Below, in pieces: positions 2,370 to 60,200 of a stretch of DNA of 64,000 bases. The stretch covers positions 19,744,837-19,808,836 of the forward strand of contig NC_087073.1 in NCBI RefSeq assembly GCF_026151205.1, given 5' to 3'. This DNA comes from Bolinopsis microptera. Taxonomy: Eukaryota; Ctenophora; Tentaculata; Lobata; Bolinopsidae. The notes below the pieces were generated by a model. It saw only the letters and a program-made list of their open reading frames with translations. It was not told where the DNA came from and ran no database searches. Position 1 is the stretch's first letter, and each line of letters opens with the position of its first letter. A program made the position numbers and the translations under genes.

Positions 2370-4544
2370 TCAAGGTTGTATACTGTGTGTTCTTTGATGT
2401 CTGATCAGAGTACACTTCACATTCACAGCATACGAGCATAATGAACACTTGAATGACTTTCCCACTGAATCATGAGATTTTTGATGTTTGTCCAAACCGC
2501 CTTTAGTTGTAGCTGCAAATGGGCACTTTGAACACTTGTAAGGTTTACCAGTCGCAGTATGGATTCTTTGGTGAACTTTTAGCTGTGAATTTAGTGTGGC
2601 AGCAAATGAACATTCAGAACATTTGTATGGCCTCTCACCAGTGTGTGTTCTTTGGTGGGATGTAAGGGTTGATTTATGGGCAGCAGCAAAAGGGCACACT
2701 GAACACTTGTATGGTTTCTCTCCAGAGTGGGTCCTCTCATGACACCGGAGATGTGATTTTTTTGATGAAGCATATGGACACAGCAGACACTTGTATGGTT
2801 TCTCACCTGAGTGAATCCTCTGATGACACCGGAGATGTGATTTTTGTGATGAAGCAAATGGACACAGTGGACATTTGAACGGTTTCTCTCCAGAGTGGGT
2901 TCGTTCATGAACATTCAGACTATCCTTGTGGGCTGTTGCGAAAGGACACTGTGTACACTTGTAAGGTTTTTCCCCTGTATGAAGCCTCTCATGAATTTTA
3001 AGGTGCATTCTTTGACTTGCGGTATACGGACATGAAGGGCATTGGTAAGGTCTTTCTCCTGAGTGTGTTTTCATATGGCTATTCAGATTAGCTGTTGCTG
3101 ACGCAGCAAATGAGCATAGAGAACATTTGTATGGCCTTTCACCAGTATGAGTTCTTTGGTGAACTTTAAGCTGTGAACTTTGTGCAGCAGCAAATGAACA
3201 TTCAGAACATTTGTATGGCCTCTCCCCAGTGTGTATTCTTTGGTGGGATGTAAGGCTTGATTTTTGGGCAGTAGCAAAAGGGCACACTGAACACTTGTAT
3301 GGTTTCTCACCTGAGTGAGTCCTCTGATGATTCCGGAAATGTGCACTATGTGATGAAGCATATGGACACAGTGGACATTTGAATGGTTTCTCTCCAGAGT
3401 GGGTTCGTTCATGAACATCTAGACCATTCTTGTGGGCTGTTGCAAAAGAACACTGTGTACACTTGTAAGGCTTATCCCTTGTATGAATCCTCTCATGAAT
3501 TTTAAGGTGAATTCTTTGACTTGCGGTATACGGACATGAAGGGCATTGGTAAGGTCTTTCTCCTGAGTGTGTTTGCATATGCCTATTCAGATTATATTTT
3601 GTTGACGCAGCAAATGAGCATAATGAACATTTATAAGGCTTTGCCTCTATATGGATCCTCTGATGATCTCTAAGAGCCTTCTTTTGTGTAGTAGCAAATG
3701 TACATAAGGTGCATTTGTGTGGTTTTATCCCAGAGTGTATTATCACATGTTTGTTCAGATCACCTTTAGCTGCTGCAGCGTAAGAACACAAAGGACACTT
3801 ATATGGTCTTTCAACAGTGTGCGTCTTTTGATGTCTATTTAGAGTAGCATGTGAAGCTGCAGCAAATGGACATTGTGAACATTTATAAGGTTTCTCCCCT
3901 GTATGTGTTCGTTGGTGACTTTGAAGATGGCCTTTCTGTGATGCAGTATAAGGACACTGGACACATCTGAATGGTTTACTTTTGGCACTGCTTCTGGTCT
4001 GCATCTTCAAAATATCCCCCTCTGCTGTTGCACAAATGGAAGACAAATCATCACTTGGTGAGGTTGTTTTATCATGCAAGATAATTTCAGTGGACTGAGA
4101 AAACATCTCCCCATCATCTTTATCAGCTCTGCCTTCTGCTGAAGTTGGACTATTATTAGCATCCGAACTCTCTACTGCAGGGCAATCCTGTTCTGGCGAT
4201 ATCAAGTCATCATCTTGAGACGAAAACTCTTCATGATTAATATGAGAAGCATTTCTGTCGAAAGTCATCTGATCATGGTGTTGCTTCACATGTTCCATGA
4301 ATGTGGAATCTGAGTAAAAGTGCTCTGCACAGATAGGACAAATAAAACCAACTGACTCTCCTTCAGGTTCACATTTAATTTCTCTTTTCGTCAAATTATT
4401 TGATGTTTCATGTTCTTTGATGTGACCAACAAAATTATCTTCAGTGAAGAAATGTAAAGCACATATTGGACAGAGGAAATTGCCCAAAATAGCCGAGGGA
4501 TCTTCTTGTTCAGACTTTATTTCTTGTTTTATCCTGAACGACAT
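2370..4544 (-). CDS. C2H2 zinc-finger array protein, 21 fingers, intronless
   Basis: Encodes 724 residues in one exon. Two N-terminal fingers stand apart (FLCPICALHF...H, FICPICAEHF...H). An acidic Ser-rich spacer follows, then 19 near-continuous C2H2 fingers with TGEKPYKC/SGEKPYKC linkers, ending about 10 residues before the stop. Such arrays bind DNA in the nucleus; target and regulatory sign are unknown. The N-terminus has three perfect SUMO-consensus tetrapeptides (IKQE, IKSE, IKCE). Fingers 7-12 and 13-19 are a duplicated block: the order SLCSFAAS, CPSCPYTASQR, CTQC.FATAHK, CPLCP.ASS, CSVCPFA, CSECSFAA recurs, with one extra CxLCPYASS finger in the second copy. The ATG at 4544 follows CTAAAATTTCAG|G, an acceptor-like sequence. 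All fingers I checked keep both Cys and both His. Confidence 0.93.
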   Translation of the reverse strand: MSFRIKQEIKSEQEDPSAILGNFLCPICALHFFTEDNFVGHIKEHETSNNLTKREIKCEPEGESVGFICPICAEHFYSDSTFMEHVKQHHDQMTFDRNASHINHEEFSSQDDDLISPEQDCPAVESSDANNSPTSAEGRADKDDGEMFSQSTEIILHDKTTSPSDDLSSICATAEGDILKMQTRSSAKSKPFRCVQCPYTASQKGHLQSHQRTHTGEKPYKCSQCPFAAASHATLNRHQKTHTVERPYKCPLCSYAAAAKGDLNKHVIIHSGIKPHKCTLCTFATTQKKALRDHQRIHIEAKPYKCSLCSFAASTKYNLNRHMQTHSGERPYQCPSCPYTASQRIHLKIHERIHTRDKPYKCTQCSFATAHKNGLDVHERTHSGEKPFKCPLCPYASSHSAHFRNHQRTHSGEKPYKCSVCPFATAQKSSLTSHQRIHTGERPYKCSECSFAAAQSSQLKVHQRTHTGERPYKCSLCSFAASATANLNSHMKTHSGERPYQCPSCPYTASQRMHLKIHERLHTGEKPYKCTQCPFATAHKDSLNVHERTHSGEKPFKCPLCPFASSQKSHLRCHQRIHSGEKPYKCLLCPYASSKKSHLRCHERTHSGEKPYKCSVCPFAAAHKSTLTSHQRTHTGERPYKCSECSFAATLNSQLKVHQRIHTATGKPYKCSKCPFAATTKGGLDKHQKSHDSVGKSFKCSLCSYAVNVKCTLIRHQRTHSIQP

Positions 4545-27100: not shown

Positions 27101-30100
27101 GTGAGTTTGGCATGTGAAAATTTGCAGCCTTCCAGACATTGATTGGGTTAACGAGGTGTCGTATGTCAGCTAGTTGGGCCAAGATTTCAAAATTGATGGG
27201 CAGCCGTCACTCACCAAACCATGGTGTGAATGGTAGTGGCTCTCATTAGAGCTGCGAAAATAACACGAGTGCATATGCCTGGGGTTGCGTCCTGACTATG
27301 CTGCAGGGAAATCTGTACCGAAAGGACCGTGGCCGCACCGCAAAAGAAAAGGAGATCGGCCCCTCGATCCTAGCTTGCTAGGTTCGCCATTGTTGTGTTG
27401 TTGTTGTATGTCACCTCAAGATCGGGTGACAGGGGGCTGACCAGGCCAGAACCCAATTGATTGGGTCTGAGGTCACGTGATTATGAGCCTGAGGTTACGT
27501 GACTGTGACGTCACCAGAGCTTGTTCTCCGTTTCCCGCTCATTGGACCAGTAGTTGACCAGTAGTTATAGTAAGGGGAAAAGTGGTCGATTTAAGGGTTC
27601 CGTTGGATTTAAATGTTCACAAGGATTTAGCAACGGAATATGGTAGTTAGAACCCCTACGAACATAATTAGACTTGTCACCAATTTTGTATCTCGACAGA
27701 AACACCACTTTTTACCACTTTTTACCACCTTTGTACCACCTTTCTAGTTTGCCAAATATCTTTAGTTGTGAACGTCGTAGAAGGCTGGAAATTAACCTAG
27801 AATGTTTATCTTATCAAGGAGTAAAACTTTTGTTCAAAAAATTTTTACATCGGACAATCAGCTAATTGGATAATTACTAATTAGTTAATTACCAAAAAAA
27901 GTGAAAAATTTTTATTGGCTCAAAATAATTAAAATCGTTTGAAACACGGAGAAATGTAATTTTTAGAAAAACTTCAAAACTTTTTCTCTTACACAAATTT
28001 TTTTCGAGACTTGGAAAAATTTCGAAAATTTGAAAAAAAAATTTCCGCCAAAAGTGATCGAATTGCATGAAACGTGGATAAAAATGCTTTGCAGAAAAAC
28101 TTCGAACCTTTTTAGATTGGGGAATACTAAAATCATCAATATTTGAAGTTGGAGTTCAGTAAATCTCGGCATATTTTAGTAATTAGGAATAGCTTAGCGG
28201 AAAGGGCTGAACCTGAAAAACGTTAACCACACAATATTAGAGTTTCATAACTAATTACAATATAGCTTTATCAAATTCCACATAAAGAAACAGCACAAAA
28301 GGACCGTTTAAGATCGAACCGATTTTACCTGCTGTATACTATCATTTTATTGATTTCAATGATCAAAAGTCAAAACCTCTCTGTACCGTCAATCTTGCCA
28401 ATCTATACCAGGTATCTGAATGTACCGGACCTCTTCTTTGCCTCTATAATAATTAGACCCAGTTGTGCAAGAAATGCGATTTCTCACAGGGGCTTCTTTT
28501 AACTGTGCACCTTTTGTCACTCCCGCAAGAGGCCCGGTATTATAGGGGGGTATAGGAAGTGTAAATATACCTTCCATCATCCACTGTGGCTTTTTTGTGT
28601 TGTGAATGCACATTGCACATGCCGCTTCGTTTGCTATGCAAGATACCTCGAATAACCCGCATATGTCATTGCCAGGGTCGGGATAGAGCTGGAGATAGCA
28701 TTGAGAGGTTCGGTACATTCAGATACCCGGTATAGATTGGCAAGATTGACGGTACAGAGAAGTTTTGATCATTGAAATCAATAAAATGATAGTATACAGC
28801 AGGTAAAATTGGTTCGATCTTAAACGGTCCTTTTGTGCTGTTTCTTTATGTGGAATTTGATAAAGCTGTATTGTAATTAGTTATGAAACTCTAATATTGT
28901 GTGGTTAACGTTTTTCAGGTTCAGCCCTTTCCGCTAAGCTATTCCTAATTACTAAAATATGCCGAGATTTACTGAACTCCAACTTCAAATATTGATGATT
29001 TTAGTATTCCCCAATCTAAAAAGGTTCGAAGTTTTTCTGCAAAGCATTTTTATCCACGTTTCATGCAATTTTATCACTTTTGGCGGAAATTTTTTTTTCT
29101 TCAAATTTTCGAAATTTTTCCAAGTCTCGAAAAAAATTTGTAAGTGAAAAAGTTTTGAAGTTTTTCTAAAAACTACATTTCTCCGTGTTTCAAACGATTT
29201 TAATCATTTTGAGCCAATAAAAATTTTTCACTTTTTTTGGTAATTAACTAATTGGTAATTATCCAATTAGCTGATTGTCCGATGTAAAAATTTTTCTTTT
29301 AAAAGTTTTACTCCTTGATAAGATAAACATTCTAGGTTAATTTCCAGCCTTCTACGACGTTCACAACTAAAGATATTTGGCAAACCAGAAAGGTGGTACA
29401 AAGGTGGTAAAAAGTGGTAAAAAGTGGTGTTTCTGTCGAGATACAAAATTGGTGACAAGTCTAATTATGTTCGTAGGGGTTCTAACTACCATATTCCGTT
29501 GCTAAATCCTTGTGAACATGTAAATCCAACGGAATGCCACTTTTCCCCTTACTATTAATGCCTTTTAATCAAAAAACATTTATCACAACCAAAGTTATGA
29601 ATAGCTATTGCTATTAGCGTGAGTTAGTCACAACTTAGATCAATTATCATAAAGCATGAAAACGCACATCAATAATCTGTGCTTACTCAATCTTTTGATG
29701 TTGCTACGACGACGCAGTCAAACTTTGATGAAATAGCACCATTTTTCTATCGTCAATTTTTCCTCTCTTCCGACGTTAATTATATTTAAACTATAGCCTA
29801 AATCAAAGTTCTAAAATGACTATAACAACTACATTTCAACTTCATTTGAGAGCTGAAATTGTTCATATCGAAAGGCCAGTTTTTGGTGAATTTTTTGTGT
29901 TTTTATGCCGTTGCTGGGTAGATTCCCGTAAAGTTTAATTTAAAGTATATATATGTGCACCAGTCTGTAAACTTTGTTAATACACTCTCCACACTCATCG
30001 CAACAAAGTCTCCCCCAAAATATGTACCACAGACCTACTAACACTTCCGATAGGTTTATTGCTGCTTTGTCTAATGCTGGAAGGAAAAACATCCGTATAC

Positions 30101-33100
30101 AACAGCAGTACTTCTACCTTATGAAAAGCAAGCAACAATCAACAATACCAAAAGGTATCTTTGAACAGTGTCAATTTCAGTGTAGTGTCAGAGACCCTGT
30201 TTTAGAGAAGTTGACCGCCAGTATGATGATATTCACAGCTAGCAGAATCTTGGATATCTTAATCCTCTACTACCACAACTGGTCAAACAGACTAAGAGAG
30301 AACTACTACAAACTGGAAAATGAGTTTAAAACTGCTGTGCCAACAAACCATTTTGAGAGAGGTATGGCTACTGTCCAACACAAGATCCGCCAACAGAAAC
30401 TGGAATGTGAGAAAACACACGATTCTAAGTTAAATAGAGACAAGGTGAATGGAACAGAGGTATACATCAAAAACAGCTATACTTCATTACCAGAACAACC
30501 AGAAGTACCCAGGATATCTCTAACCAAAACGAGAACTCGTAGGCGCAAGGAGAAAAAAGCAAAAGTCACTAAACCTAGAAAAAGGAAATCTGTCCATAAA
30601 CACAGGAGGGATGGGATAAAATCAAGACCACTTAACAGAAACAATGTCAGCCAAGCTGCATTAGACAAAACTGTCATTAATCTCTCGTCCAAAACAGTTA
30701 CAAATGCTCATAAGTTTGTCTTCCACCTTGGAGAATCATTTGCAGTTACTCCTTCTAAAACGAACAGAGATAAACTAGTAGAAGATGTAAACTCCTGGGC
30801 AAACTCACTTAGAATGAGTTTCGTCCTCAGTAGAGTTGTAATCCCCACCCAAAATGTAGAAGAACATGAGAAAACCCTTGACCAGAAGGTAAAGCAAATG
30901 GAGAAAGTTCTAGGAATAAAAACCTCAAAGAAGAAGAATTTCTCTAACAGTGGTAATCATGCATTAGAACTGTTCATCAGCAATGTCAAGAAACAGATAT
31001 CTAATCACCCTAGAAAACCAAAGCCAGCTCCTAGGAATGTAGACAAGGAGACTACAAAAGCAATCCAAGAGCTCAAAAGCTGGGATGATGCTGTAATTCG
31101 ATTATTTGATAAAGGGACTGGGTTCTTTGTGTTAGACAAATCAGACTACATCAATAGAGTAGAAGCTGCTCTAAAAGATCAGAGCACTTTCAAACAAGTA
31201 TCGGATCAACAACAACAGATCCACACAACCATCATCACCATTAAAGAGTGGGTTCTGAAATACTCAGCAGATGCTGACTGCCCTGGCATGACCCCAAACT
31301 TTATGGAATGGGTAACACCTAGTGAAGAGGAAAATGAACCTGGAGTAAACTACATGAACCTGAAAGCTCACAAACCAGAGAAAAACTACCCTGGGAGACT
31401 TATCAGCACTGGATGTAACTCTTACATCAAGAACCTCTCAATATTCACAGCAGAAGAACTAAAGAAGGTAACCCTGCCCCACTGCCTCATGGATTCTAAT
31501 GATCTACTTATGAAGATGAAAGAACTCAATGAGTCAGGAAGATTGACTGGGAAGACCATCTACCACGTTACATTTGATATTGTAAACATGTTCCCCAGCA
31601 TTTCAAAGGAGATTGGACTACCAGCCTGTAGAACCTTACTAGACCAAAGAAGTACTAAACTTTTCTCCACAGACTGCGTTATGGAAGCTTTGGAGATAAC
31701 CCTGGATAACAACATCACTGTTTTCAATGGCAACATGTATGTACAGACAAGTGGAACTGCGATGGGTCCAAATAATGCTTGCCAGTATGCAGACTCAGCT
31801 CTCAGCCCCTTGGACAGTAAGATCGTGGAGAGCCAAGAAATCACAACCCCTGAGTTCTATGGCAGATACCGTGACGACATATACATCACCTGGACTGAGT
31901 CACTGGAGAAGCTAGACCAGTTTCTACTTTGGCTCAATCAATACCATCCAAACCTCAAGTTTACAATGTCGACACCTTCTACAGAGGGGACTGAATTTCT
32001 AGACCTGTTTATTTACTCGAAAAATTGCAAGCTAGAAACTAGGACGTACTGCAAACCTAGTGATGCCCATAGCTATTTACTCCCACAATCCTGCCACCCT
32101 ACACACATAGCAGAGAATATTCCATATGGAGTAGCACATCGAGTGTTCAAAAACTGTTCAGAGGAAGAAGAGTATTTGAAATGTAAAATTGAATTTAGTG
32201 AATATCTAGAAGATAGGAATTACAATAAAGATCTTATCCATAAATCCTTTGAGAAAGTTGAGTTACTTAAACGGGATGATCTGATTTCAAAAAACCTTAC
32301 AGTAGTAGTAGTAAACCCGCGATGGGGTGGCATGTGCCTCAATAAAAATATTACAATCATTTATTATTATATCAATGTATTATTAAATATTTCAAAAATA
32401 TCAATAACGTATGGTTGATCCTTCACACTTGGTAAAATATATAAAAATAAAGTTAATCTACACTAAAGAATAAATAATCTATATTATATAAATCAACAAT
32501 ATTAACTCCCCATCTTCATGTAGTCATTTATCAAAGCGGTAGAAATCCAAGTAATTTTAGTACGCGGTGCGCAAGGAATTTCGCCTAAGTGTGGCAGTGA
32601 AAATTGAAAAATAAGTTGCAGAATAAATTGCAGTGACTGACTGTCAAATGCATTATCGCAGTTCATTTATTTGACTGCACAGTGCACTAACGTTTAGGAT
32701 TCTTACAGCTGTTATATTTTGCTAATATTTTGTTTAAAAGTTGTAAAGGACAAAGCTCTTACAAGCTCTAATAGTAAGAAGAGTGAAAGATGTTTTCCTT
32801 TAGTTTGTGATTTTGACCCTAACTTACCTCCAATTGGTAAAATAGTTAACAAGAATAAATTTATCCTTGGCCTAGACCCCCTTTTAAAGTCTGTGATCCA
32901 GCCTAGTAAAGTATTTGTTTCATATCGTGGTAATAAAACTATCAAAGAAACTTTAGTTCTGAGTAAACTTTCAGAAGATCGTAAGTATCATGAAGATAGT
33001 AATGTTATAGCTTTAAACTCTAACACTGAAACTGTGGCTCTGCCTACTAGTATAGAAGAGGGGGGATGTTATCATTGTAACTCCAGATGTAAAGCCTGTA

Positions 33101-36100
33101 GAATGTATATTTGTGAATCAAAAACAGCTCAGAGCTACCACTCGGGGTACACTGTTAACATCATTGGACAACTAGACTGCAACACAGTAGGGGTGTGCTA
33201 TCTAGTAAGGGATAAAGTCTGCAGACGTGCTTCAGTAGGAAGCACAGTTAACAATTTTAAGACCAGATGGCAGAACCACAAATCACATATTAGGAAAGCG
33301 GTTAGGAGTTGTGAAATTTCTTGTCATTTTAACGATAACCAGTTCCATAATCTTACCAAAGAGCCCTTAAAAACGTTTGACAATGAGTTATCCGATCAGA
33401 TAGAGGTTATTATTTTTGAAAAGCTAGATTTTATAAAATGTTTAACCTTAGAAGATAGAAGTAGGGTTGCTAAAGAAAGAGAATCATTTTGGCAAAACCA
33501 GCTTATGACCCTCAGTGATTTTGGAGGACTTAATAAACGTAGTGCTCTTAATGAAATAAAAAATTGACCTTTATATGATATGTTTTAATATTAATCTTTC
33601 CACAGACACTTGCATTTTGATGTTTACTTTCACCTCTGCATCTTTTGTTTATATCTTATGTTTGAATGAGACTTACTCACAAATTTCCCATCTCAGTATT
33701 GATCTATTTTTGTCATGTTTTTAAATTACTTCATAGAACAGTTATTTTAATAAACTTGCTTTCAGAATGAGACATGTAAAGATTACACAATCGATAGCTT
33801 AATGTGAATTTCGTGTTTTACTGTTTCACTGAATGTCTCAAATATATATATATATATAAATTATATATTATTATATGTTGAAGGGTTTGATAAAAGTTTT
33901 TTAAAAATAAGCTAGGTATCTGTTTTATTTTTTAAACGAGAAAACAATAATATACATAAACTATATTATATCATATACGTTCACAAAAATGAGTTGCTTA
34001 ATTTTGTTCATTGGTCTCTATAAAATATTATACATACTTAAAACATTATATCATGATATATTTATTATTATTGTCTGTGTGTTATGAAAGTTCCAACCGA
34101 ATGCTGTCTATTTTAAAGTGTTCTTATCAAAGAAGATAGAAACATTTCTGCCATCGTAAATGTAAACACTATTGCGGTTCACCGTGTAGGGCGGATTCTC
34201 GTTGTTTTTGTAAATGTGCATCGCTCCCCAGCCCGCGCAATGCACCTCTACTGCACAGTGAGCTCCCATGTGACTCTGGAACATCGTGCACCATTTTACC
34301 GGAGCCGCATCGTTGTAGCAGTGCCAGGTGAACTCCTTGTCAGACACATTTAAGATGTAAGCGTGGTCTGTTTTCGTGCTGGAAATGAAGCTCCGAGCTT
34401 TAACCAACACATCTATGGCTCTTCCAACGTTTTTAATCTGCTCTCCATACGTTACAAACAATAGTTTTTGCTGCGTTTGCGAATGCCTCTGGATCCGCCA
34501 ACACTGCTTCCGTTATTACCGCCGCACCAGCCATCTCTTAATATCCTGCCAGATTTCATCGTGAATATGGAAAGTATCTAATTCAGGCACAAGATGGAAT
34601 TAAAAAAAGAAAACATTCGAATCTCAATTGTTTGTCAATGATTTTTAGAGACTTAAATCCTATACAATCAAAGAAAGTATTCGTTTAACCATTTGTAATA
34701 GGATTACAAGCATATTTCAAAAATCTGTAACGATTTGTCCTGTAAATAACACCCCAGTTTGAATAATGTTTAAAACAAAAACTGTGACAAAAATTAAATC
34801 AGTACCGTTTCATAACTTAGTTAGAGTGATGACAATTTAGAGGGCTGACAATTTAGAGGGCTGACAATTTAGAGGGCTGACAATTTAGAGGGCTGACAAT
34901 TTAGAGGGCTGACAATTTAGAGGGCTGACAATTTAGAGGGCTGACAAATGATAATTTAGAGAGCTGAAAATTTAGAGTGCTGACAATTTAGACGGCTGAA
35001 AATTTATGGGGGCCTCTTTCAAGTTAAAAAATTCAAACTGGGAAAATTGCACTGCTGATATATCTGATTACGCTACAGTAACTTAGATCACAAATTATAT
35101 TAATCTGCCAGCGTGACCAGAATCGTGGGAAAAGTCGTGCTCCAAGCTTACAGAACCCTAAACTCCGCACTGCTAAGAGCTTAAGCGACAAGCGTTACCT
35201 TATATGGGCACCACATGGTAATACTGCCTACTGGCTAGCTTGTCTCATGTTGGTAGGATTGCCAGACTACAGGCTTGTAGTGTGGGGGGGGGGGGGGGGG
35301 GTGGGGGTACGACACATTTATTTAGCGCTTTTCAGTATAGACTCAGAGTAAAAAAGTTAAGGATTTATAGGATTCGTGATCAGAAATAGCTATCGAAACA
35401 ATAAATTCTTATTCTTAAGAAAACAATATGAAATCTTGCGCTATCCAATAATTTTGCAGCAGCTGATTAGCTGATATTGATAATAAAGCTTAAGGTCCAT
35501 GAGCAGGAACAAAGCTAACAAAATATTCCGCAACCTCGTGAAGTTTATTCTTTATAGTACGGTTGCAAATGGGTGTTGCCATAATTTCAGTTCCAAAATT
35601 TAAAATTTAATAATAATGAATTTAAATCTACTGGTATTTAGTCTTTCTCCGTTATTTGGTATTTAAATTTAATGAAATCCTGAAATGATGCAAAGGATTG
35701 TGGAATTTTAGTAAATTTAAACTTTTCATACAAAGTTCAAATATTTTTTATCGTGCAGGATCCTGGTAAACCCATTATCATTGGTAGATATCATTCGCAG
35801 CAAACAGACGAATGCAGCTACTAAAGTTGTGCCATTCAAGCTGCCGCCATCATGCGATTCACGGCGACAATATCATCATGATTTTAGAAAGTTTCTTCGA
35901 CAAAATCTTTATCAGAGCCCCCTTAGATAAATTGATTTTGATATTATTTTTATTTACATTGTCATTGTATTAATTCTTTACATTGATTTCAAGGTAGGGC
36001 GAGCGAATGCCGCTGCTGCTAGGGCACCGGTAGAGGACCGGTATCCGATCATACCGCCCAATAAAAGTCTAAAAATACGCACCAGATCGTTGAACAAATT

Positions 36101-42200: not shown

Positions 42201-45200
42201 TTTACCTGCAAGGCAGTTAGATGCGAGGGCAGCGATCAGCAGTCCAATCATATCGTGAGCCTGGAGCAATTCCTACAATTTATCAAAGAGAAATGAGAGG
42301 TATGATCCAATCCTTCTATTTAACCCCGAATCTTTTCCCTGACATGAAGTAAAAGGAGGAAACACATTATTTTCCTTTTTATTTCCTATTATATAACCAG
42401 GGAACTCACGAGAAATTCCCGTAAAATTTCATTGGTTCCCCTGTTGGATGCATCTCAATGATTGGTTGAGTCTGAACAATATTGTTAGGACCACCTCACT
42501 GTTCCCTGATCGGTGCCTTGAGACTGAAAGGATTCTACCGAACCCTGAAAACTTTTCACGCTACTCAATTGTAGATTTGGGTTGAGCTACCGGTATATCT
42601 GGCCACGATGACCTAGATTGTAGCGGATTTACACAGCGCCATGAAGTCACGTGTTTCTCCAGAACGTGAGGCTCAGAATTATCGGAAGAATTTACCATTT
42701 CTACTGAAATCAGAGATTGAAAATGATTCCATTTTGTCATTCGCTAGATCTAAGTCTGGGTCGGAATATGATGAACTAAGCAGAAAAGAGCTAGTAATTA
42801 CAAAATAGTACATTTATCTCCCAATATTATAAATTCTGAAGAACTTATAAATAATAAGTAAAGCTGACGTAACCATCCTTTTCAGATCGACGGAGAACAG
42901 CTGAACAAGATCCTGGGACTGGTGGACTCAGGTGTGAAACAGGGCGCCAGTTTGCAGACCGGTGGGGCACAGTTCGGTGATAAGGGCTTCTTCATGCAGC
43001 CCACTGTATTTGCGGATGTGCAGGACCACATGGATATCTCTACTCAAGAGGTGAGAACCTTTTCAAGTTCACTAAATCATTTGAGATTTTGTAATTTTCA
43101 AGTTTACTAAATCATTTGAGATTTTGTCATTTTCAAGTTTACTAAATCATTTGAGATTTTGTCATTTTCAGTACACAAAATAGCTGTGTTAGATTTGGTA
43201 CTGTAAAGTGTTATTTTTCTTTTCTGCAATATGCGTACGGCATATTCTCCAATCATTCGACACATCATAACATTTAGGAAACTACACTGCAGGATATGTT
43301 TTTGGGTAGGGGTGTTATATTTCGCAATACGACCACGATAATTTAAATTGCAACAAACCTTAAAATTCTACTCCCGAATATCCGCACAGCAACAGAGCAT
43401 GTAAATCTCATTATTCTTGCACTGTTGCATCACGAAACTGCAGGAACTGCTAGCTGGAATAGGTCTCTCTAATGAAAATGTTTATTATTGTAAAGGACTT
43501 TGAGGGGGTCTGTAGTCCCCCCGCATAGTATGTTTGTGTTTCACTGATTTGTAAACTGAAGACGTAAATATCCATATATCAGGAAGCACAATCATAGCAA
43601 AAATGTAATATGTTGGTGTATGCGTGTACCGTTTTTCCTCAACTACCACAGGCCACTAATGTTCTGTAATACTGTAATACTAATATCTACACCAAATTCC
43701 AGAACAACTAATTCTGGATCATCTCAATCTATAAAATCTGGCTGTATGCGTAGGTAACGCACTGAGCTGGATGGAACCGTACCTTGAAAACAGGTATCAA
43801 TATGTCAGATTTTTTAATGAGGTTATAAAATCCGCGATTCACCAAAAGCGCGTATAATTCCAAGATTACTGAAAATAAAACTGATCTAGATCTGATCAAG
43901 ATCATAATCAGTCTAGTATTGTCTACTGTCTATTCTATTGATATTTTTGTTGTTCGTTTATCAACAGAGGCCCTTGATCATTGAATCATTTCATTCAGAC
44001 AATTTGATTTCAGTTTAAAGTATTTTAAAACGATATGATTTAACTGCTGAGGCGTATGATTCGTATTTTTTAGCAAGGCCTTGTTACTTTTTAATTTTAC
44101 TCAGTGATAATTCATGACATTAGTGCGAGGAAAAAAACATCTGAAGAATAACCATGGAAAATGATAGCACTGTATTATAAGGGTGTTGTGCTGCCAGCTA
44201 TTTCCAAGCCAATATCTGGCTTTCCACAGAAATTGTAACGATCCATTTGTTCTGCAGAAATGGCTTCCTGCCAGGAACAAAGTGCTCTCTTCCGCTCTCA
44301 AGAATGTTGGCACTCTGCCCAGGATAGGTAACCCGCTAATTGCTTCACTAAGCACTGAAATGTATGGGTTTAATTTAATGGACACGTTCAAAAAAAGGTG
44401 GCACTAGAGATTGATTTTTTTAAATGCGTTTTAAAAATAGTCATTGTTCTTTGTTGGTTGATATATCTATCTATACCTTTAGAAATTCGATTAAATTTCA
44501 TGATCCTGAAATCACGGAGTCTCTAGTGCTTATATTACAGGAGTTATCGTTATTTGTGTGCCAATGATTCAAATATCACACAATTAGAAATGCAAGATGA
44601 ATCAACACTAGATAATCTGAAAAGTACTATTCACAAAGACGCCAAAATTGATATGGTGATTATAATGCATGTAAGGAATGGAATGTCTTATCTGAAATTG
44701 TTATTGGTGCCAAAATGATTCAAAAATCACAACTTAAACGTTGGAAATGAGCCTATTTTGAGCAGTGATTATTGAATCATCTTACGTTTTTATTGGCTTT
44801 CTATCATTTTTTAGGGTACAAAATAGTATTAAATAGTATTAAAACCAGTTAATATGATTCAAAAATCACATTTTCGTTAAAGGTGCGCTATTAAGTCACA
44901 CTATAGTAAGCCTTAAATTAAGTGCACGATATGACAATTTATATCCATTCTATGATTCTTATTATGTGATTTTTGAATCCATGTCTAAGCTTATACCATA
45001 TTGAAGGCCTTTGAGCGATAATTTTTGATCTCGGTGCTTAAATGATTCAAAAATCACACAAATCTGGCTACCAAATATGTAATTTCCTTTAAAGTGTGAT
45101 AATTGAATCATACGTAATGTTCAAGTTGTAATGACATTTTGAAAGTAAAGGTAATGAATCGATAATCACATTTCAAAAATCCGATTAAGTATTATATGTT

Positions 45201-48200
45201 ACTGATATGATTCATTTGTCACATTATGGCGACAAAATTATCATGGCTTGAACTGTAAAAGTACTTGCCTAGTTTACTCAGTTTAAAATCAGTTTTTTGT
45301 GATTATTGATTCCACTATTACTCTAATAACGAACTTCTCCATGACCATAAACAAGTGTCACAACACATTACTGCAGATTTACTATGAATACCAACCTGAT
45401 ATAGAGCCAAAAAGTGATACATTCCCCTGATACAGCATAATTTCAATACATGCTCATTTATGTGATTTTTGACTCATTATGGCACTTTTAACCATCTAAA
45501 TTCTCTAAATATTAGTTAGCATGATATAATTGTGATTGATAGAGTTCATTGTTACAATCGTTTCGTTGATATTCATATCACATTCATCATTCTAAAACAC
45601 TTAGTCAGAATTAACCCTGTGTGTGATAATTGCATCGTAACTCCACATTTAACCGGTGATACTTTGCAATTTTAACACTCAACTATCTCAAAAAGGTTCA
45701 ATAATCACATTGAGAAGCAGGACACACTCACAGAATGTAAATTCATCATTAGAGGTGCAAGAAATGAATATTTTGTGATTTCTGGCTCATATCTGCACAA
45801 TTAACAGATATAAAGAGATGGATGACTTAATTATGTGATATTTGAATCTTTTTGGACCACATATTAAAATTTGGTTAACTTTCATAGCATACTCCTTGAG
45901 ATACAAGTATTTTAAAATGCTTCACACAATTTTGGCAGTGAAAAATCAATCTCTAGTGCCACCTTTTTATGAACGTGTCCTAATAATGAAAGTTTACATG
46001 ATATGTCTCGAATTTCCTCTTGTTGCTAATATACAAGGTCTACTGACAAACGTATCACGTATGTACGGCAGATATATGTGTGTAAAGTGTGATCTAACCC
46101 TTATAGTTCAAAGGGCAATTTTTCGAGACAAAAATGAATTGGACAACTTCAAACTATATTTATTTGGGCAACCTGTTTCACGGCCAATAAATTTACCTCC
46201 CAGTATTGATACACCCGTATCAGATTAGTCAGGGTAGCGCACAGCTAACATGAGGACAGGCCACTTAAGACAGAATAAAATTCCTGGGTTTTACAGACCT
46301 TCAGGGCGAAGCTAAATTACAGAATCAATTTAAGACCGCAGCGATCTTATTATTTGAGTGAACAAATTATAAACGTCAACATGTTAACGATTTTTGTTGG
46401 CTCAAATAATTGAGTGAAATCGAATTATTGGCCGTGGAACTATAAGGTAACGTATTGCGAAGGGGCTGATAATATCTGTGTGAAGTGTAATCTAATAGTA
46501 ATAAACTTCAATATGTCTATGGGAAGTGGTTCAACTAAATTTATTTTACGATAAGACGGTTTTAGAAATTTTTTCAATGATGAAAAATATTGAAACATTT
46601 CTATATAACTTATAAGGCAAAATAGGCAACTAACAATTAGTAACTAATTTACTTATTTTTTTCTTGCTACAATTTAGGCCCTGTTCCAACAAATATGATG
46701 TCAACTTCTTCATTGTGTGACACAATTTGTGCGGCTCACATTATGTTATCATATTACTGTATAGCCTCAATATATACTTTGAAATATCCAGTTACCTAGA
46801 GAACAGTTATTTAATTAATTAATTATCTGGACAATTAGACAGTTCTTTGTTTGAGATGGTTTAATTAAATCAAGTTTTTCTGGCGTGTTCTGATTTTATG
46901 TCCTTCAATTTGCTGTCAAATAACCTCGCTACACCCATTTTAATAATGGGCGGATATTAAAAGTAATTAAGACATTATTGTAATTCAAAACATTAATGTA
47001 TTCAGTGGCCATACCGGCAGTAATTGTAAAAAGCTCTTCTTAACAGTAATATAACACTAACAGGCCCAGGCGAATATTCTAAATGAATGATATTCATTAG
47101 ATTTCACATCTGCTGTTTCCATCTTTCATTGATCAGCACTGTTAATAACTTACGGCAGATGTTGGAATGTTCAAACTATTTCAAAATATGTTCAAGATCT
47201 TATTATGCGCATTGTCAAGATCTGTAAACCATCACTCCTTTCTATTATCATTCGTCGCGTCTAATTAAGATAATGACTGATGTTTCAGTAAAATTATGAA
47301 ACGTAATCTATTTATCCCTTTTTTTACATACCATGGAATCAAGATAGTGCACTTATTTTCTGATATCAGAGATAAAATTCGTTTCGTATTTTACGTAATA
47401 CAATATTAACATAAATTAACAGGCTAAAAATCAAAAGATATCAAATCGAATAAAACATTAAAACACAAACTCTCCAAATATCTGTAAGTCGTCTACTTCT
47501 CATTCCGCGATAAATATCATGTAAATAAAACATAAAATTCAAAAAAGGGCAAAATTATGCCAAACATTTCACCATTGTTATTTACTACAAGAATCAACAC
47601 TGTGACTAAGAACATCGTTACTAGATAGACTATAAGTACAAACTACGAATAACCAGACTTCCACGCTATCAGACCATTTAAAAAGTCACTATAAATAAAG
47701 AAGAGCGACTGCTATAACGAGGAGTGAACCTCTCCAAACACCAGTTCCCGCACTGACACCCTCTCTCTGCTCCACACCATAATCCAGCCCGGTGTATTGG
47801 GTGGCACAGTTGGTACCTGGGTTATAGTTCTCATCACTCTCCGTACAAGGGTTCAGAACCTGGTTCCTTATCGTCTCCAGATTATACTCGGGTCCCTGAC
47901 ACGAGCAGTCCGTGCAGGAGGCCCACACCAAGAGGAGGTTAGTGTTCGGAACTGCACTGTAGTTGAAGGACTGGTAACAGGTGGGAGACTGCTGAAGATT
48001 GTTCCCTGTACCCACCTCTACGGAGAAGTTCCGGGACATGAAGGGGTGAATCTGGCAACATGTTAGGTCGATCTTAATAGACTTCCAGTCCTCCTTCAAC
48101 TGATCGTCCGATTCTGATATACCGGATACCAAAATTGAAGGATTCAGTATGAAGAACCAAATGTTCGACAGTAGGTTCATTACTACAGATGCGGTGGAAA

Positions 48201-57200: not shown

Positions 57201-60200
57201 TAAACAATATTACGACATAAAATCGGTAAAAACATAAAAAAGTTAATCGCTGATAGTTTAATTAAAGCATTCTTTCAAAAGTTTCAAATAAGTTTAATTA
57301 CGAGCGGTTTTATAATACCGCTCAAATATGGGTTATTTATTTAAAACTTTTAGACATTTCTTATTTTGAATTTTCCGCCCGTTTCGAAGATATTGGGTCG
57401 AGCACTTTTTAAGTTTAGTTGGACAAGTTTATTATCAATACATTTATTTAAGCTCCATACCATTCAGCTCAACAGAAATACTGTGTTGTCGAACAACAAG
57501 AAATGAGGAAAATAATAGGGCTGGCCTCAACAACAAGATACTGACTAACAACCGTTCTCACTAGCAGTTAACAGGAAAAACATTAAAAATCATGCTTACC
57601 AGACCGGAGTGACCGGACCTGACCTGAATCTGATGACTTATTTATGGGCGGTAAATATTCAGCTGTTAACAATAAAAGAATAAAGAGTGATAAAAACATC
57701 CAAGTTCAAAACATCATGCATGATCGGTAGTCGATGGCTTGACATATTTATCGCAACAAAAAGACGAAAACGATAAAGGATAACTTCTAAACTCCCTTCA
57801 GCTCACAGTGCTTAACGTTAATGTCCTCTGAGAACCATCAGGCTCACGTTGAGGCTAACCTTCGGTAAAACTCAACTTTAGAAATCTATCCAAAGGTAAT
57901 TCTCAGGAGAGCAATGTGGCGGTAACTGGTTAATGTTATAATAAATAACACGTTTCCTTGACCGCGCTTAGTATTACATAGTATTTAAATTGTAAACGGT
58001 TTATGGCCCTCCGTTCCTCTCGGCTCTCAGTGTTACAAAGATTTTCTCAGTTGAACAAAAGATTTTCTCTCGCTAACAGTAACAAAAGATTCTGTCTCAG
58101 TAATGGTCCACTCAGTGACAAACGATCTCCTATCTCAGTTACAAATGATCTCCTCTCTCAGTTACAAATGATCTCCTCTCTCAGTTACAAATGATCTCCT
58201 CTCTCAGTTACGAATGATTCTCCTCTCTCTCTTTTTATAGTGTAACAATTCTAACACCATTCTCATGATATAATACAATGTACATGCCTATAATACAATG
58301 TACATGCCTAGAGTTCATAATGCTATAATGTATTATAAAGTATGTTTTAGGCTAAATGAGGTCAAATCCTCGTTAAACTATGGGCTGGCGCAGAATATTT
58401 GGGATTCTAATGTTTTAAATTTAAATGCAGATTCGCAGGTCTGGTTAAGTTTCTATCGGAACTAAATTCAGTAGAAACTTGGATCAGAGTTCAGACCAGA
58501 TCGAAAAAGACCGTACTGCAACTCGCATTTTCCCAACTGAAGTGGAAATGGAATTGATCTACGATTCAGACGCAAGAACAATATGTCATTTTACCAATAT
58601 CGGCGACAAAGAACAATCGGTGTTAAATGTGATACGGTTTTATTGTGTCGAGAATTATGTCATTGCTGGCACTCACGTGACATTACTGGCTAGGCTCTAG
58701 GTTTATAGAATTATGTCATTGCTGGCACTCACGTGACATTACTGGCTAGGCTCTAGGTTTATTGAAACGTAAGTAGAATGCACAAACAAATGCTCCCCAT
58801 TATATACTGTACTGGAAAGGTAAGCACGAGCTAATTAAACGAAAAGCCGACCGCGAAGGAGCCTTAAAGCTTTTAAGGTGTACACATTTTAAACAGGGAT
58901 ACCACAATCGATTGTATGAAAAGCAAGGAGCTGGAAAAGAATGGGAGTTGGAAAAGAATGGGAGAAATCTACAACCCGCAGAAGAACTTGCACAAGTATA
59001 CATATATAAAGATGACACTGTGGTCGCGGACCAATCCGTCGCTAAGATGCAGATTTTGGGCATGTTACATGTACAGGCTACTTTATGTAAATCAGTGCTC
59101 GATTGAAGATTAGCTTATTATTACCGTATAGTCACGTTATCTATTATTGGTAAACTGGGCAAATCTATTACTATGCATTGTGATCATAAATAAAGAGGAG
59201 AATTCAAACGAATACTTCATTACAGGTTTAGTTCTTTAAATTTAGCAAGGTTGCCCATACAGGATGCCGCTTTATCAATAGACAATGACTTGTCTGATCC
59301 ATTATGTTACGTTGAGTTGTGCTACTGTAAAATTATAACTTTCTATTGGTGGAGGACAGTGCAGCTCAATTAACATCTTATCCACAATCCCTGTTGGAAC
59401 AATTTGAGTTTTAAATGGAAACAAAAATCATGCTTTAACGTAGTATTTATTAATGAACCTGTTTTATTCAAAAGCCAGTTCCTTAAATCGTCGGGCTATG
59501 AATGTCCAAGAACAAAGCGCGAGACCTGCTGTCCATATTCATACGCAGTATAATACATTTACACAGAGAGATGGTTGCTAACCTGTGGGAGCTACCTCCA
59601 GGGTGAGATTAGGGTGATCTCACCTCAGCAGACAACCTCCAGGCCCCAGGGTGAGGGTAGATTAGGGTGATCTCACCTCAGCAGACAACCTCCAGGCCCC
59701 AGGGTGAGGGTAGATTAGGGTGATCTCACCTCAGGAGACAACCTCCAGGGTGAGGGTAGATTAGGGTGATCTCACCTCAGGAGACAACCTCCAGGGTGAG
59801 GGTAGTTTAGGGTGATCTCACCTCAGCATACAACCTCCAGGGTGAGGGTAGTTTAGGGTGATCTCACCTCAGCATACAACCTCCAGGGTGAGGGTAGATT
59901 AGGGTGATCTCACCTCAGCATACAACCTCCAGGGTGAGGGTAGATTAGGGTGATCTCACCTCAGCAGACAACCTCCAGGGTGAGGGTAGATTAGGGTGAT
60001 CTCACCTCAGCATACAACCTCCAGGGTGAGGGTAGATTAGGGTGATCTCACCTCAGCAGACAACCTCTAGGGTGAGGGTAGATTAGGGTGATCTCACCTC
60101 AGCAGACAACCTCCAGGGTGAGGGTAGATTAGGGTGATCTCACCTCAGGAGACAACCTCCAGGGTGAGATTAGGGTGATCTCACCTCAGCAGACAACCTC

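Follow-up and report, generated by a model that had tools for sequence, protein, structure and literature searches.

The element and its motif array

The 64,000-nucleotide stretch of Bolinopsis microptera DNA analysed here (hereafter "the window"; positions 19,744,837 to 19,808,836 of contig NC_087073.1, assembly GCF_026151205.1) contains at positions 44380–45980 a complete non-autonomous DNA transposon of exactly 1,601 bp that carries 17 units of one 16-bp motif. The inverted-repeat boundaries given for this segment by an earlier reading of the bare sequence (the original prediction) are real: the element is bounded by 40-bp terminal inverted repeats (TIRs) composed of GGACACGTTC, 7 A-rich bp and GGTGGCACTAGAGATTGATTTTT, its termini read GGACAC (overall GG..CC), and TAAT is present directly outside both ends as a 4-bp target-site duplication. 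Each TIR carries one GTGCC and likewise AAAAATCA. Because the longest open reading frame (ORF) that lies wholly within this copy has only 54 codons (a 128-codon frame runs across the right end), the element carries no usable ORF and is non-autonomous. When folded as single-stranded DNA its interior gives z = −3.0 (20 shuffles), as expected from inverted units. A bacterial promoter scan returned nothing useful, an Rfam scan of the window found only one weak tRNA elsewhere in it, and there were no exact matches in viral contigs.

The motif consensus is TGATTCNNNNATCACA, with most information at positions 1, 5, 12 and 14 (positions are counted from 0 throughout). At 0, ≤1 and ≤2 mismatches the element contains 5, 11 and 18 merged sites, compared with averages of 0.00, 0.04 and 0.51 when the element was shuffled 300 times with its dinucleotides kept (at most 4 at ≤2 mismatches) and with 0, 0 and 5 sites in the remaining 62.4 kb of the window, so that the motif density is far above the shuffled background. 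We count 17 units, since the eighteenth site (45307) is a weak match that overlaps one of them, in good agreement with the 16–20 copies first predicted; of the 16 sites listed at that time, 15 lie within 1 base of a match to TGATTCNNNNATCACA at ≤2 mismatches, the remaining site (45531) is by eye a half-site only (TGTGAT), and the units at 44501 and 45567 had been missed. The units and boxes of the element are as follows.

44376–44379, no strand: left target-site duplication TAAT (flank comparison)
44380–44419, plus: left 40-bp TIR, GGACACGTTC...GGTGGCACTAGAGATTGATTTTT, with GTGCC (minus strand) and AAAAATCA
44501–44516, plus: array unit 1, TGATCCTGAAATCACG
44521–44529, plus: CTCTAGTGC, internal copy of the 9-bp TIR box, adjoining unit 1
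44558–44562, plus: GTGCC box upstream of unit 2
44565–44580, plus: array unit 2, TGATTCAAATATCACA (subfamily B: TGAGTCAAAAGTCACA)
44707–44711, plus: GTGCC box upstream of unit 3
44716–44731, plus: array unit 3, TGATTCAAAAATCACA (subfamily B: TGAGTCAAAAATCACA)
44764–44779, minus: array unit 4, TGATTCAATAATCACT
44855–44870, plus: array unit 5, TGATTCAAAAATCACA (subfamily B: TGATTCAAAAGTCACA)
44965–44980, minus: array unit 6, GGATTCAAAAATCACA
45043–45058, plus: array unit 7, TGATTCAAAAATCACA
45095–45110, minus: array unit 8, TGATTCAATTATCACA (subfamily B: TGATTCAATTGTCACA)
45155–45170, plus: array unit 9, TGAATCGATAATCACA
45208–45223, plus: array unit 10, TGATTCATTTGTCACA
45298–45313, minus: array unit 11, GGAATCAATAATCACA
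45461–45476, minus: array unit 12, TGAGTCAAAAATCACA
45481–45485, minus: GTGCC box upstream of unit 12
45567–45582, plus: array unit 13, TGATATTCATATCACA
45622–45637, minus: array unit 14, CGATGCAATTATCACA
45694–45709, plus: array unit 15, AGGTTCAATAATCACA
45774–45789, minus: array unit 16, TGAGCCAGAAATCACA
45834–45849, minus: array unit 17, AGATTCAAATATCACA (most B copies: AGAGTCAAATGTCACA)
45941–45980, minus: right 40-bp TIR
45981–45984, no strand: right target-site duplication TAAT (flank comparison)

Nine units lie on the plus and eight on the minus strand, and the arrangement "mostly direct on the left, reverse on the right" that had been suggested dwindles to a weak trend (6 plus and 3 minus on the left, 3 plus and 5 minus on the right). 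Unit spacing is 48–163 bp from start to start, with no convincing helical phase. The spacers are largely but not wholly unrelated, as had been proposed: there are GTGCC boxes beside three units, and a few units share about 30 bp at 68–85% identity, a residual likeness that reaches 14–18 bp upstream of some of them. The five GTGCC in the element are the two in the TIRs and three that precede a unit by 2–4 bases on its own strand, and CTCTAGTGC occurs in both TIRs and beside unit 1 (44501) and nowhere else in the element. Because GTGCC and CTCTAGTGC are found in both array and TIRs, we infer that the two may be tied to one recogniser.

Genome-wide, the motif was counted in two flank-restricted scans, which cover only part of all genomic motif copies. 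The scan for a C or G directly before the motif, a combination not found in the window element, gave 20 copies, no two of them within 10 kb (reversed controls, 63 and 79). The scan for [GT][ACG] directly after it gave 27 (controls, 25 and 12), of which 20 lie inside fetched element copies or no more than 2 kb away from one. Within these two scans the array is essentially private to this transposon family.

Copies, insertions and affiliation

The genome searched is the window's own assembly (264,652,675 bases, or 264.65 Mb, in 232 contigs). A search with the element gave 132 matches, and the 40 of 112 candidates that were scored include at least 20 other near full-length copies at 96–99% identity. 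The inner 23 bases of the TIR occur at 147 places at ≤2 mismatches (100 of these were listed and 47 were not) compared with none for the reversed control, so other segments with the same inverted ends, whose existence the original prediction had left to be checked, are plentiful. Patterns for the right and left ends found 71 and 47 places, respectively, and pairing these 118 ends together with 20 picked from the 147-end scan gave 51 pairs and left 36 ends unpaired; 22 of the 51 pairs are 1,597–1,618 bp long and 14 are 1,951–1,970 bp long.

Among 37 paired copies, 33 differ in their flanks as read, and since L032 is the L025 insertion reversed there are 32 distinct insertions. An exact 4-bp duplication flanks 28 of the 32 (it is absent in L010, L015, L034 and L053), with ATAT preferred (13 cases) and ATGA, TTAG, ACGT and ACTT among the others. 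Four of five further distinct pairs have one as well (L057, L059, L065 and L071, not L058), and L073 repeats a known flank. The copies, single TIR units with target duplications, are dispersed over the large contigs and also occur on some small ones. These measurements show that the two TIRs and what lies between them are mobilised together, with duplication of 4 bp of target, preferably ATAT, and that the element is present in dozens of copies. The 32 copies of 1.6 kb contain 215 private differences, or about 0.42% per site per copy, and this low private divergence, together with the mostly intact duplications, points to recent activity and young copies.

L025 (1.6 kb) and all the 1.95-kb copies whose flanks were read occupy the identical place of one repeat unit, and because of this a single insertion that duplicated ACTT must be seen as having later multiplied along with its host repeat. 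Empty sites are present: the joined flanks of L030 match the host repeat uninterrupted at ≥89% identity in at least 21 of 72 matches, and the same search also found the flanks of filled copies at 100%. The host repeat (period about 326 bp) carries one element insertion around L025, L030–L033, L036 and L073, and its left flanks are 100% identical over 136 bases at no fewer than 20 places, the transposon having spread there as a passenger of another repeat. The 1.95-kb type has about 349 extra bases at one place (L030:758-1107), ending near CAACAACAACATCA, perhaps an insertion resembling a short interspersed nuclear element.

With 40-bp TIRs, a fixed 4-bp duplication, dispersed multiple copies and no transposase ORF, the family has the properties of a non-autonomous TIR transposon. 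Its superfamily is narrowed by the following comparisons. Elements of the piggyBac superfamily duplicate TTAA, which is not among the duplications tallied here, and CACTA (En/Spm) elements have CACTA/CACTG termini and in some cases a 2-bp duplication, where this element has GGACAC and 4 bp; hAT elements duplicate 8 bp and Tc1/mariner elements TA, neither of which agrees with 4-bp duplications such as those above. Two sources give a 3-bp duplication for CACTA and TG..CA termini for Ginger (PMC10741241) and CC..GG termini for piggyBac (PMC10045372), compared with 4 bp and GG..CC here. Thus CACTA and Ginger are excluded by termini, and hAT and Tc1/mariner by duplication length. The element does share with CACTA the presence of subterminal units of 10–20 bp in both orientations (17 units, 9 plus and 8 minus), and with Sola the 4-bp duplication, an agreement in duplication length only that also fits some other superfamilies.

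Matched motif changes in two subfamilies

Full-length copies fall into subfamilies A (which includes the window copy), B and C (the copies inside the host repeat), and the array is present in A and B and in the older copies alike. For the count of fixed changes A was the window copy plus 15 others and B was 16 copies; A was 17 and B 18 in the analysis of private mutations and in the tree. Between the sister subfamilies A and B there are 33 fixed changes, of which 9 fall in the units, 24 elsewhere and none in the TIRs. Seven of the nine unit changes belong to two repeated classes when read on the motif strand: A/G at motif position 10 in four units (44565, 44855, 45095 and 45834) and T/G at position 3 in three units (44565, 44716 and 45834). 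Nine random unit changes give on average 0.72 pairs with the same change at the same place, and nine or more such pairs, as observed, have P = 6e-5 (100,000 simulations; the window copy served as alignment reference, independence of sites was assumed, and the parallelism had been noticed before it was tested). As a control, the 28 private unit mutations, which arose after insertion, form 5 parallel pairs where 7.5 are expected, and so display no parallelism. These parallel changes are better evidence of function than is preservation of the motif (below).

The direction of the changes is read from the older copies L066–L068, where position 3 is T in units 44565 and 44716 and position 10 is G in units 44565 and 44855 (L067 has no data for 44855); L065 agrees with them except at position 10 of unit 44565. 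Tentatively, position 10 would have changed stepwise from G to A in lineage A, with C sharing two of these steps, and position 3 from T to G in lineage B. Two of the three position-3 changes are present in L006 and L054, both classed as B, a state that gain in steps would produce.

The predicted binding array and its alternatives

We think it somewhat probable that the array is a set of binding sites for a trans-acting transposition protein whose preference has shifted, carried by a non-autonomous transposon with about 17 predicted sites. A transposase or DNA-binding partner protein would be provided in trans by a source that we did not see and would bind both the array sites and the TIRs, in which the same GTGCC and AAAAATCA pieces occur; binding would load the two element ends and fold them together before cutting, by analogy with the role that CACTA subterminal repeats are thought to have and that the outermost Hermes repeats have, and the matched changes at motif positions 3 and 10 would record the shifted preference of the protein in the two subfamilies. 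Of the three possibilities originally offered for the segment, a transposon with internal transposase sites fits best, given the TIRs, the duplications, the scattered copies, the empty sites and the lack of coding capacity; binding of a transposase, or of a dimer, to the sites is our inference.

How does this organisation compare with known systems? Galileo/Foldback elements are internally repetitive and bounded by inverted repeats, but those TIRs are long and themselves repetitive, whereas here they are short and the units are scattered in an otherwise largely unique interior. Ac/Ds is a hAT system with subterminal repeats, and we know of no array of this kind in Sola. Our literature search, for which most subscription papers were out of reach, found no element with this organisation, which is no proof of novelty, and the original statement that none has been described was too strong, since subterminal regions of CACTA elements and of Hermes carry many short repeats in the portions of the papers available. 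The closest are the Jozin CACTA elements of Chenopodium, whose subterminal regions contain a 12-bp motif 19–23 times, direct as well as inverted, and this motif differs as a whole between related elements (PMC8978399, available in part). They resemble the present element in having about 20 copies of one short motif in both orientations inside short TIRs; they differ in their CACTA termini and 3-bp duplications (GGACAC and 4 bp here) and in having two subterminal blocks around genes where this element has a gene-less array, spaced at 48–163 bp, that fills it completely, and no CACTA transposase has been linked to it. Hermes (hAT) also has many short repeats, 17 and 14 AAGT subterminal repeats in its two ends, the outermost of which are bound by the transposase BED domains in the assembled complex, and scrambling the whole left-end stretch abolished its mobility (PMC10368747, as far as accessible); its target site is 8 bp, and its repeats are much shorter than the 16-bp two-part site here. 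Sola elements share the 4-bp duplications and have TIRs very variable in sequence and length (PMC10741241, in the part available), but membership in that group rests on a DDD transposase, and the present family is known from non-autonomous copies alone.

A number of observations weigh against a bound array. The 16-mer as a whole is not preserved: fixed A/B changes are found at 9 of 272 motif sites and at 24 of 1249 sites outside motif and TIRs, which is no deficit, and the 272 motif sites contain 10 shared variants where 10.0 are expected (mask shifting, 33 copies). Fisher tests of shared versus private variants in the units gave P values of 0.39 and 0.44, and a first set of high-information positions that included position 10 gave 4/10 versus 12/28 (P = 0.59). 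The set 1, 2, 5 and 11–14, chosen post hoc after that one failed, is changed less than the sites outside in subfamily B (0/119 versus 31/1249), in L066–L068 (1/46 versus 67/527) and in L065 (1/49 versus 63/565), with P values of 0.018, 0.026 and 0.058 in the three comparisons, and shows no significant protection in L061 (6/95 versus 67/1044), L043 (4/117 versus 63/1206) or subfamily C (1/119 versus 39/1248, P = 0.12). Hence the idea that the motif was conserved while everything around it drifted does not hold for the whole 16-mer; the post hoc test weakly suggests that only its near-invariant positions are protected, and the comparison of motif with spacer among homologous copies comes out cleanly neither way. 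L065, a copy of 790 bp that lacks 10 of the 17 units, nonetheless has a 4-bp duplication. The FastTree tree places L006 and L054 with the older copies and not with the rest of B, and because of this the branching and the direction of change are tentative. In Hermes, about 70% of activity was kept when putative internal repeats of the left end were mutated, and the authors judge auxiliary internal binding unlikely (PMC10368747, accessible part).

Also on this side of the balance, searches of the assembly by TIR, motif and flank (100 of the 147 TIR ends listed; a 32-kb pair read at its two ends only, and several unpaired ends unread) found no transposase-bearing partner, and the longer copies that were read (L005, L006, L027, L029, L052–L056, L059 and L071) contain nested or non-coding inserts. 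The insert of L006 is a long interspersed nuclear element (LINE) by Pfam, those of L005, L055 and L056 are reverse-transcriptase ORFs (by eye or by likeness to L049), that of L054 is a Mutator-like element with its own inverted repeats, that of L027 is by eye a fold-back repeat, that of L052 is simple-sequence-like, and those of L053, L059, L029 and L071 have no stop-free frame above 88 codons. A pattern that excluded the usual interior behind the same tip gave five matches, one of them a LINE-interrupted copy and one a known C11 end (the other three are unread). Two further candidates were set aside. In L037 a 222-bp right end is joined to an ORF with PHD and 2OG-Fe(II) domains, but the relatives of this ORF are LINE first ORFs (ORF1) with a reverse-transcriptase ORF behind them. 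The old copies L066–L068 on C11 run into coding-like exons, which are likely host exons because such copies came from that one C11 stretch only and their outer flanks match each other.

These inserts and neighbours have features of their own. The nested Mutator-like element lies at L054:1158-3270 (PF10551, E 1.1e-8). Multicopy LINEs at L049:2702-8268 and L051:1-3674 have an ORF1 with a weak PHD finger and an AlkB-like 2OG-Fe(II) oxygenase domain (PF13532, E 2.6e-21 and 3.1e-13); L051 ORF1 alone adds a weak GDSL-type esterase, and in L049 the ORF behind it encodes an endonuclease-reverse transcriptase. Searching at the protein level gave 153 matches (two domains of one ORF are counted apart), and a literature search for AlkB with LINE ORF1 found no paper that names AlkB. 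The L037 frame (L037:653-1861; C2:14825945-14827120) is open for 403 codons and single-copy, its next relative being 50% identical, and adjoins the truncated right end; it may be a LINE ORF1 that was stranded there or co-opted. The tandemly duplicated stretch C11:1654850-1691100 (L066–L068 and L074), in which the element left ends are 84–88% identical and lie with the coding-like exons, also holds a 412-codon membrane-protein-like ORF without a Pfam match, and L074:3134-5914 (minus) has stop-free frames of 87–316 codons (no Pfam match in the four that were scanned), which resemble fragments of a single large protein that might belong to another mobile element. Elsewhere in the window are a 724-amino-acid ORF with about 17 C2H2 zinc fingers (2370–4544, minus), ORFs of 814 and 282 codons without a Pfam match (29974–32418 and 32719–33567, plus) and a minisatellite of 26 copies of a 46-bp unit (59646–60866).

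In the main rival reading the array is bound by a protein of the host, such as a C2H2 zinc-finger factor with an architectural or silencing role, and serves silencing, tethering or insulation, the parallel changes then being escape from that factor or tuning to it; we regard this as unlikely, though worth serious attention. Many DNA-binding proteins could use dispersed sites at variable spacing, Hermes transposition did not need internal repeats (PMC10368747, in the part accessible), and in the available text of PMC12221973 chromatin loops of ctenophores and placozoans are associated with transposable elements, the placozoan loop motif sitting in a Mutator TIR. The ctenophore loop-anchor motif in that same text is, however, GC-rich, unlike the AT-rich motif here, a general host factor would not be expected to have a motif almost absent outside one family in the two scans above, and GTGCC and CTCTAGTGC connect the array with the TIRs.

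Could the matched changes have arisen mechanically? Very short gene conversion or template switching between units, with no selection, is compatible with the other readings, and unit 44716 does become identical in B to unit 45461 (TGAGTCAAAAATCACA); but positions 3 and 10 differ together in 44565 and 45834 and singly in 44716, 44855 and 45095, and the tracts would need to be under about 16 bp with unlike flanks, so that we find this improbable. A little more improbable still is that the array is a functionless relic of an old tandem repeat with drifted spacers, copied because it lies between two TIRs. It would account for unit divergence between subfamilies equal to that of the spacers, for the residual likeness upstream of some units and for the duplication beside the short copy L065; it would not lead one to expect 17 units near one consensus amid largely unrelated spacers, no fixed change at positions 1, 2, 5 and 11–14, or unit changes so far from random (7 of 9 in two classes) when private mutations are not parallel. 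Finally, parS and CENP-B box arrays are arrays of short binding sites, and the likeness to them is all that favours a replication, segregation or centromere locus, to which we give almost no credence in view of copies scattered as single TIR units with target duplications.

Returning to binding by a transposition protein, the in-step change of the motif is the part worth following, and the filling of the whole interior sets this element apart from the subterminal arrays of CACTA and hAT. It is conceivable, and we put it forward with some reserve, that the transposon is in essence one long predicted binding array whose motif two subfamilies shifted in step across units, leaving a fossil record of the changed binding preference of a transposition protein or of a host repressor that was evaded. 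Although CACTA and hAT elements are known to have subterminal repeat arrays, one can seldom see how such an array responds to a change in the protein that reads it; in this genome two young subfamilies and some older copies allow the steps to be put in order, if tentatively, and the co-evolution of a binding-site array with its protein would become testable with one protein and 17 sites.

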